DNA of 64,000 nucleotides, taken from NCBI GenBank assembly GCA_949130485.1, contig OX422183.1, positions 31,962,640-32,026,639 on the forward strand. Direction: 5' to 3'. Both the position numbers and the translations under genes were made by a program. The notes beneath the pieces are model-generated. The model ran no database searches. It saw nothing but the letters and a program-made list of their open reading frames with translations, and had not been told where the DNA came from. Below, one piece after another: positions 52,101 through 55,100 of the stretch (positions are counted from its first letter, which is position 1; every line of letters begins with the position of its first letter). This stretch comes from Agelas oroides (lineage: Eukaryota > Porifera > Demospongiae > Agelasida > Agelasidae).

Positions 52101-55100
52101 AATGACGTCATCACGCGCTCTTGAGGTTCATCTACGCTACTACCTCGGCAACTACTCACGGTGGTCGCCTGGCCAAACAGGGATGCCTGGTGCATCAGCT
52201 TCTTTGGAATGCAACCAACATTCACACACGTTCCACCAAGACCCCAATGAGTACCTGAAATGCCAAGCAACAACCAATCACATTCATTGCTCAGATAAGT
52301 ACGCAGCAAGTGTAAGTTGAGATAGAATAGGGTCTGCCTTCAATATACGGTCACTTCGTAGGTCCCCCCACCAAGTTAACATTCACCCAGTTTTTGTCAC
52401 AAGCAAAAAAACATTGAAAGAAAGCGAGGATGAGGTTACATATTTTGTGGGGGGAGGCTGGGGACTAGACTACGAGAGAGACTGGGGACTAGACTACGAG
52501 AGAGGCTGGGGACTAGACTGTGAGAGAGACTGGGGACTAGACTACGAGAGAGACTGGGGGCTAGACTACGAGAGGGACTGGGGGCTAGACTACGAGAGAG
52601 ACTGGGGACTAGACTATGAGAGAGACTGGGGACTATACTGTGAGAGAGACTGGGGACTAGACTACGAGAGGGACTGGGGGCTAGACTACGAGAGGGACTG
52701 GGGGCTAGACTACGAGAAAGACTGGTGACTAGACTACGAGAGAGACTGGGGGCTAGACTACGAGAGAAGCTGGGGACTAGACTACGAGAGAGACTGGTGA
52801 CTAGACTACGAGAGAGACTGGGGGCTAGACTACGAGAGAAGCTGGGGACTAGACTACGAGAGAGACTGGTGACTAGACTACGAGAGAGACTGGGGGCTAG
52901 ACTACGAGAGAGACTGGGGACTAGACTACAAGAGAGACTAGGGACTAGACTACGAGAGGGACTGGGGACTAGACTACGAGAGAGACTGGGGACTAGACTA
53001 CGAGAGAGACTGGTGACTAGACTACGAGAGAGACTGGGGGCTAGACTACGAGAGAGACTGGGGACTAGACTATGAGAGAGACTGGGGACTAGACTGTGAG
53101 AGAGACTGGGGACTAGACTACGAGAGGGACTGGGGGCTAGACTACGAGAGGGACTGGGGGCTAGACTACGAGAAAGACTGGTGACTAGACTACGAGAGAG
53201 ACTGGGGGCTAGACTACGAGAGAAGCTGGGGACTAGACTACGAGAGAGACTGGTGACTAGACTACGAGAGAGACTGGGGGCTAGACTACGAGAGAAGCTG
53301 GGGACTAGACTACGAGAGAGACTGGTGACTAGACTACGAGAGAGACTGGGGGCTAGACTACGAGAGAGACTGGGGACTAGACTACAAGAGAGACTAGGGA
53401 CTAGACTACGAGAGGGACTGGGGACTAGACTACGAGAGAGACTGGGGACTAGACTACGAGAGAGACTGGTGACTAGACTACGAGAGAGACTGGGGGCTAG
53501 ACTACGAGAGAAGCTGCGGACTAGACTGCGAGAGAGACTGGGGACTAGACTACGAGAGAGACTCGGGACTAGACTACGAGAGAGGCTGGGGACTAGACTA
53601 CAAGAGAGACTGGGGACTAGACTACGAGAGGGACTGGGGACTAGACTACGAGAGAGACTGGGGACTAGACTACGAGAGAGACTGGGGACTAGACTACGAG
53701 AGAGGCTGGGGACTAGACTACGAGAGAGACTGGGGACTAGACTACAAGAGAGACTGGGGACTAGACTACGAGAGAGACTGGGGACTAGACTACAAGAGAG
53801 ACTGGGGACTAGACTACGAGAGGGACTGGGGACTAGACTACGAGAGAGACTGGGGACTAGACTACGAGAGAGACTGGGGACTAGACTACGAGAGAGGCTG
53901 GGGACTAGACTACGAGAGAGGCTGGGGACTAGACTACGAGAGAGGCTGGGGACTAGACTACGAGAGAGGCTGGGGACTAGACTACGAGAGAGGCTGGGGA
54001 CTAGACTACGAGAGAGGCTGGGGACTAGACTACGAGAGAGACTGGGGACTAGACTACGAGAGAGACTGGGGACTAGACTACAAGAGAGGCTGGGGACTAG
54101 ACTATGAGAAAGACTGGGGACTAGACTGCGTGAGAGACTGGGGACTAGACTACGAGAAAGACTGGGGGCTAGACTACAAGAGAGGCTGGGGACTGGGGAC
54201 TAGGCTACGTTGCACACACCTTGTGGTGATGGAGCCACAAAGTCCAGTACAGCCACTCTCTTTCCAAATGAAGCAGCTGCAGGCGGAATAAAACAAAGTC
54301 ACACAAGATCCATCCAGGAAGAAAGGAAGGAAAGAAGGCACAAGAGTAGTCTGGTGTCTGATCAAGAGGGAGGGGAGGCAGGAGGGAGAAAAGGAGGAAG
54401 GGAGGAAGGGAGGGAGGTAGGTAGGGAGGAGCCAGGAGAGAAGGTAGTCTCGCAAGCCAGACCCACTTCCGCAAAAGAAGGAAGGGTGTGGTGAACTGCG
54501 TATACAAGCCATGTCCCACCGAAATGCAATTAGCTAGATGACGTAACCAGATTAATAATGCACTCTTGAAATATCTGTTGCGAAGTGCACACACTCTCCG
54601 AGAAGTATAAGTCGAAGTGTTTTTACAGCTCTTGTAGTAGCGGAAAATATGTCCTAGCTCTCTGTTGCCATTTTCAAGACCATTATTGCTACTCAAACGG
54701 TGATGTAATGTGTCATGTGACAAGATACTGCAACGTGATTGGACGGCGGGACACAGCGGCTTGTATACGCAGTTCACCAGACCCTTCCCTTTTTTTTTTT
54801 TTTGCGGAAGTGGGTCTGGCTTGCAAGACTTGAGAGAAGGTAGGAGAGAGGCAAACCCAGCAAGAGCCACACCTTCCTTGGAGCACGCCAGTCCTCCTGA
54901 TCCTCCTCCAATCACAATGAGGTCATAATCATAACCTCCATCACCTGCCGCATGTGTGTGTGCGTGTGTGTGTGTGTGTGTGTGAGGTGTGTGTATGTGT
55001 GCAAGGTGCGTGTGTGTGTGCGTGTGTGTGTGTGTGCGTATGTGTGCAAGGTGCGTGTGTGTGTGTGCAAGGTGTGTGTGCGTGTGTATGTGTGCGAGGT

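Follow-up and report, generated by a model that had tools for sequence, protein, structure and literature searches.

The route from transposon to satellite is already known in other animals. The closest described system is Tetris (TIR-220) of Drosophila virilis, a foldback element with 8-10-bp target duplications that was ascribed to Mutator and in which duplication of part of the inverted repeat gave rise to kilobase-size arrays; Mutator-like MITEs and foldback elements are discussed alongside it in the sections of that paper drawn on here (PMC4079207). Further satellite sources include the MITEs Xstir and miDNA4 of Xenopus and a tandem-repeat MITE of the clam Donax, for which microhomology or hairpin models are offered as routes from MITE to satellite, whilst double insertion into target duplications has been proposed as another source (PMC12628747). 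Judging from the excerpted text of the latter account, what is known of how transposons give rise to satellites comes mostly from individual families caught at one stage (PMC12628747).

The sponge family described here resembles Tetris, as portrayed in those sections, in being a Mutator-type foldback family whose inverted end feeds arrays, but whereas Tetris has one 220-bp unit, apparently favoured in beta-heterochromatin (PMC4079207), the sponge has units of 15-64 bp built round a 15-bp terminus and shows several origins even within 3.3 Mb at the start of one contig. Internal MITE sequence grew in Xstir and a captured repeat in miDNA4, according to the excerpted text (PMC12628747), whereas the sponge units contain the outermost terminus. 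What is unusual here is the tiny size of the units, resting on the 15-bp end itself, the scale and number of origins, the gradation that leads from inserted elements to collapsed or expanded ones, and the 24 bases that preferentially separate adjacent insertions. One genome holds a graded series, from tens of thousands of ends through about two thousand inverted pairs and bounded arrays of a few units to long arrays without ends, and counts along this series can put slippage, unequal exchange and double insertion to the test as models. The letters of the terminus were also sought in print, and no related report appeared in the literature covered by the search. We consider it probable that the arrays are by-products of an abundant Mutator-like foldback/MITE family whose ends misalign and whose arrays then grow, with much of the recurrence owed to the sheer number of ends.

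Six arrays in one window share a family terminus

The window is the 64-kb stretch of Agelas oroides contig OX422183.1 that was analysed as a whole; it was not randomly chosen. The original prediction had named six arrays within it as derivatives of a single transposon family. All six were recovered by Tandem Repeats Finder, and a weight matrix found the family terminus TAGCCTCRTWCCCAG, the 15-bp common conserved part of the elements, in each of them. Three arrays lie on the plus strand, with 6.3 copies of a 23-bp unit TAGCCTCATTCCCAGTCCTCCAC (39029..39172), 8.2 copies of a 64-bp unit that contains a whole short element (42104..42619) and 5.5 copies of a 32-bp unit with TAACCTCGTACCCAG (50192..50367). 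On the minus strand are a 26/52-bp array with CAGTCTCATTCCCAG (24437..24578), a 23/46-bp array of 10.8 copies of 23 bp (43545..43793) and a 24-bp array of 72.5 copies that spans 1,741 bp at 92% match (52454..54194).

The array at 42,104 had been predicted to repeat a complete element, and its unit does hold a whole short element (55 bp) followed by a 9-bp spacer CTTGTAACC, although this makes it 64 bp long rather than 62 bp; its edges read CCCGTAACT and CCTGTAACC, with two mismatches. The arrays at 39,029 and 43,545 have one common 23-bp unit, including an 8-bp linker, on opposite strands, and the six arrays therefore amount to at most five births rather than the six separate ones first proposed.

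The weight matrix was derived from 58 terminus copies (up to two mismatches; reversed motif 0) in a 200-kb genome sample made up of 20 stretches of 10 kb from 11 contigs, picked by round position only and excluding the window. Among the 79 arrays scored in window and sample together (those with a period of 10-130 bp and 2.5 copies or more), five window arrays had units of 15.8-26.7 bits and L022, from the sample, had 23.9 bits; all six stand clear of the other 73, which scored 2.35 bits or less. The 24,437 array, whose best row had only 2.2 copies and so fell under the 2.5-copy limit, was scored apart from the 79; its 26-bp unit gave 19.9 bits. No shuffle among 2,000 matched the real score for any of the five window units other than the 24-bp unit, for which 3 of 20,000 scored as high. 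By the weight matrix, the array units share homology with a portion of a dispersed transposon, as in a Tetris-like satellite.

An abundant family of Mutator-like foldback elements

Across the 259-Mb genome (141 contigs), the terminus motif TAGNCTCRTWCCCAG occurred 35,940 times (reversed control 2) and the core CCTCRTWCCCAG 37,832 times (reversed control 48). Dispersed members in the window included complete elements of 140 bp (31318..31457), 365 bp (36093..36457) and 417 bp (50728..51144), with 9-bp target duplications TGTACTGTG, CTTAATAGG and GTTTCTTTA, respectively. Elements of 325 bp (15246..15570) and 66 bp (49257..49322) each had a 9-bp flanking repeat with one mismatch, and one of about 104 bp on the plus strand (24042..24145) had inverted ends and an imperfect flanking repeat. 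A 56-bp micro-element (62045..62100; target duplication CTTCTACAG) and a 311-bp element (62125..62435; CACTATCTC) lie 24 bp apart.

Fifteen elements were fetched by their paired ends only, including two, L033 and L034, that represent copies of a single segment; flanks matched perfectly over 9 bp in 11, over 8 bp in two and had diverged in two. This set superseded an estimate of duplication length from elements pre-chosen by a 9-bp match, which was circular. In the genome sample, 8 of 76 end pairs carried 9-bp flanks with at most one mismatch, compared to 0 of 760 in a shifted control. The fetched elements thus show the 9-bp (8-10) target site duplication of the Mutator superfamily, and the family therefore fits a Mutator-like assignment. 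MULE-domain matches numbered 119 in the genome, and none of the three such loci examined (about 3.3 kb each) was bounded by family termini; no autonomous element with family ends was found, the longest stop-free stretch in the elements L042-L046 being 157 codons.

Mutator-like MITEs and foldback elements have a 9-bp duplication, inverted ends, no gene of their own and a gene fragment between the ends. The sponge family is alike in its 9-bp duplication, its inverted ends and the lack of an own gene among the elements seen, and its members are non-autonomous and short, with inverted ends making up much of the element. Fetched elements of 32-68 bp had palindrome identities of 0.75-1.00, three being perfect, whilst larger ones measured 634-643 and 1,891-1,991 bp. 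Two large elements were checked for gene fragments: the 643-bp L043 carried a DEAD-helicase (DEAD-box) fragment between its ends (E 3.8e-07), a candidate host gene fragment that resembles gene-fragment capture as in Pack-MULEs, and L046 gave no family match. Self-comparison of L045, a 1,991-bp element with family ends, revealed several blocks that recur internally at 76-88% identity and from which tandem repeats might also arise within an element.

The longest array lies in a thioredoxin reductase intron

Minus-strand peptides on either side of the 52,454 array match thioredoxin reductase chains (3dgh_A residues 5-30, E 3.2e-07; 1h6v_A residues 49-79, E 8.4e-14). The matched part of one exon includes CVNVGC (52166..52258, minus strand), and that of the other a GGGSGG stretch (54865..54942, minus strand), which we take to be FAD-binding. 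As these exons flank the array on both sides, it lies in an intron of a thioredoxin reductase gene; the more specific attribution to TXNRD2 over TXNRD1 was not borne out, the cytoplasmic and mitochondrial types scoring alike.

The unit of this array is GAGACTGGGGACTAGACTACGAGA, with the terminus on the minus strand as TAGTCTAGTCCCCAG. The original prediction had placed the unit close to CTGGGGACGAGACTA, a form of the family terminus present elsewhere in the genome; the likeness stands at 14/15, although the unit actually holds CTGGGGACTAGACTA, one letter away, which matches the consensus terminus at 12/15. Such divergence counts against a terminus origin. The outer edge of the array (54193..54207, minus strand) reads TAGCCTAGTCCCCAG, 13/15 to the terminus and 18.5 bits. 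When a 23-mer of the unit was sought across the genome with up to three mismatches, 72 of the 80 matches fell inside the array, which is a single-locus array; its eight outside relatives are dispersed matches, six of them to the plain terminus CTGGGGACGAGACTA. Within the array, a 456-bp block of 19 units is duplicated (at a lag of 456 bp, the sequence from 52,637 is identical over 419 bp), and the array grew by multi-unit blocks. Neither a target duplication nor an inverted end at the opposite side was recovered when this array was searched. Together with the tens of thousands of dispersed termini and the elements with 9-bp duplications, the dispersed relatives of the 24-bp unit uphold the predicted direction from transposon to array. 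That a satellite came first, with the terminus evolving from an older array picked up by the transposon, is highly improbable: the excerpted text describes a captured array for miDNA4 in Xenopus (PMC12628747), but nothing in this genome speaks for such an origin, termini far outnumber arrays and sit at element edges with 9-bp duplications, and the arrays share the terminus yet differ in linkers.

Inverted ends and their probable collapse to palindromic micro-elements

Genome-wide, 2,084 pairs of cores were detected that face inward across 3-33 bp (control 0); such close inverted ends, together with collapse to a perfect 32-bp palindrome, set the sponge family apart from the Mutator-like MITEs described above. 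That palindrome (L031) has a perfect 9-bp duplication, as do the other palindromic elements of 32-56 bp (L030, L037 and L038). Three micro-elements were compared with the deletion products predicted from the 643-bp L043. The 40-bp L030 and L037, found at separate sites and flanked by unlike target duplications, have exactly the sequence predicted for deletion between its 8-bp repeats, and the 56-bp L038 has that predicted for deletion between 9-bp repeats, with one mismatch. These matches indicate that family ends can misalign with each other. The exact predictions for L030 and L037 speak for slippage as the putative molecular act of deletion, and it is also possible that micro-elements move as such.

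Terminus arrays recur across the genome

Close direct core pairs, with 3-33 bp between them, numbered 2,168 genome-wide compared to 4 for the reversed control. The first 100 of these (contig C1, 0.48-3.31 Mb) formed 20 clusters that comparison of flanks by eye, rather than by program score, reduced to about 12 origins, with unit lengths of 15, 18, 22, 23, 24, 27, 28, 37, 42 and 43 bp among others. This bears out the prediction that satellites are born recurrently from family ends, here beyond the window. Extrapolation from these 100 pairs gives about 430 clusters (434) genome-wide, a rough estimate given that the start of C1 is enriched (100 pairs against about 28 expected). In the position-chosen sample, 1 of 91 arrays of period at least 8 bp contained two or more strict termini, compared to 5 of 56 in the window, and none of the 22 exact cores in the sample had a close direct partner.

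Only a minority of arrays showed the boundaries of an insertion. Four of 27 array loci lay between 9-bp duplications, namely L039, L040 and L051, with perfect duplications (L040 holding two copies only), and the window array at 42,104, with two mismatches; among at most 1,540 control comparisons, 4 passed the same limit. The remaining 23 loci, including the 52,454 array, had no recognisable target duplication, which weighs against the by-product reading, as do the low counts in the position-chosen sample.

Misalignment of ends or abundance alone

Under the reading that we consider probable, copies of the family would first insert, producing the 9-bp target duplications that are observed, and the inserted ends would later misalign during copying or repair. 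Misalignment one way would delete the middle and leave the short palindromes; misalignment the other way would duplicate the terminus, the terminus plus neighbouring DNA, or a micro-element plus one target duplication, structures that are all seen and from which the act itself would follow only by inference. Once two direct copies were present, arrays could grow by slippage and by unequal exchange of multi-unit blocks, and much of the recurrence would stem from how many ends there are in a genome rich in short tandem arrays.

The strongest competitor holds that the ends have no special property, any word being tandemly duplicated at some rate and an abundant word being caught in proportion; we give this reading somewhat less than an even chance. 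Arrays take up about 10% of the non-satellite sample, which accords with it. Per copy, 5.7% of cores (2,168 of 37,832) had a close direct partner, whereas ordinary words of like composition did so in 1.1% of copies in the 17 non-satellite stretches (resampling 95% range for the near-identical count 0.5-2.2%) and in 3.2% in all 20 (0.7-7.6%), so that the terminus lies above the former range and inside the latter. Three of the 20 stretches (L024, L027 and L028) are wholly satellite, with periods of 113, 192 and 103 bp, and large satellite blocks thus exist in this genome. Counted per locus, the terminus rate is about 1.2% (434 extrapolated clusters over 35,664 loci), and the background is 0.55% (95% range 0.24-0.92) in non-satellite stretches or 1.6% (0.35-3.7) when satellite stretches are included, a comparison that favours abundance alone. 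At 0.55%, some 35,700 terminus loci would give about 200 arrays, against the extrapolated estimate of about 430. The excess of terminus arrays is therefore about twofold per locus over ordinary sequence and is not secure against the whole sample. The collapse products, in which family ends do misalign mutually, and the per-copy rate outside satellites both argue for more than abundance. Control words of equal copy number were also sought, and the terminus CCTCATTCCCAG itself proved to occur in more of the non-satellite stretches (8 of 17) than any other complex 12-mer; as this left no equal control family at hand, the background over all words was used instead. With a roughly twofold excess and overlapping uncertainty, the earlier proposal that palindromic ends promote slippage is unproven. 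Recurrent birth we accept, whilst palindromy, as a conjectural cause of array growth, may possibly have added a further push.

The bounded arrays bear on a second alternative, in which arrays are functional parts of the elements, extra transposase-binding sites that were amplified in the ends and spread by transposition, as has been suggested for Tetris and Galileo. In L039 and L051 the end arrays lie within one target duplication with the opposite end intact, as such a model would have it, and functional amplified binding sites are proposed in the sections of the Tetris paper drawn on here (PMC4079207). Against it, linkers and unit lengths differ among the roughly 12 origins, and array types seen repeatedly share flanking DNA by eye, as copied segments do, without new target sites. 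We regard this alternative as unlikely for the sponge arrays.

Neighbouring insertions prefer a 24-bp spacing

Outward-facing end pairs with a gap of 2-32 bp numbered 291 genome-wide (control 0), some of them being array units. In 115 of the 291 the gap was 23-25 bp, against about 28 were the gaps evenly distributed; among the 50 places listed at this spacing, 28 had 24 bp, 11 had 23 bp and 11 had 25 bp. Most of these gaps differ in sequence, with at least two pairs of places that look like copies, and the neighbouring elements often differ in length. At gaps of 33-63 bp there were 136 pairs, of which only 10 fell at 38-40 bp, and a second preferred spacing at 39 bp was rejected.

Both elements had their own 9-bp duplication directly at the ends (0-1 mismatch) in 8 of 20 fetched pairs, as did the two elements of the window pair (62,045-62,435). 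A further two pairs (L067 and L077) showed both duplications, once with a single extra base between. One or both outer ends could not be located in the remaining 10, perhaps because the stretch was short or the copy had decayed. A 24-bp gap composed of 9 + 6 + 9 bp corresponds to two insertions 15 bp apart. We know of no report of a 24-bp spacing between neighbouring insertions.

Repeated insertion next to or into resident copies, as in the double-insertion model, could in principle build tandem runs, and the 115 close outward pairs, with separate 9-bp duplications in the readable cases, are what such a process would leave. The sponge arrays are like the double insertion outlined in the excerpted text in that a target duplication helps head-to-tail copies, the 42,104 unit being an element plus a 9-bp spacer (PMC12628747). 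They are unlike it in that most arrays examined for their flanks hold single ends and the close insertions lie 24 bp apart, outside the duplication; moreover, the units of the whole-element arrays examined are separated by 9, 20, 33 or 53 bp rather than by 24 bp. Serial insertion is accordingly a quite improbable origin for the arrays.

A more speculative reading builds on the spacing. The family may prefer to insert at a 15-bp offset from a resident copy, with the transposase complex on one element steering or coupling the insertion of the next, and the ends may then collapse to palindromes some tens of bases long or expand into minisatellites, closing a genome-wide cycle of insertion, collapse and satellite birth. 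We put this forward tentatively, as a scenario that we would sooner doubt than assume. If caused by the transposase, the 24-bp spacing would preserve in the genome a trace of coupled target choice.

Other repeats and genes in the window

Two further array types recur both in the window and in the genome sample. Units like TCATGTGA/ATCATGTG form arrays at 20549-20666, 22061-22153, 25669-25895 and 26116-26386 of the window and at 7717-7843 of L026, and 15-bp units like TGTCAACTCCCAAAA occur on both strands at 5453-5757 and 40828-40972 of the window, at 2132-2919 of L010 and at 7948-8439 of L021. Several kilobases at 44481-49699 abound in purine arrays of GAGG type and are extremely skewed between the strands (GC skew 0.74 at 46-48 kb). 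A 109-bp tandem repeat at 24798-25220 has a unit that looks tRNA-derived, with A-box- and B-box-like stretches, and ARAGORN calls a single tRNA in the window, tRNA-Ser at 63,226-63,300. An uninterrupted frame of 895 codons at 55914-58601 matches the gamma-secretase-activating protein C-terminal family (E 1.6e-23).
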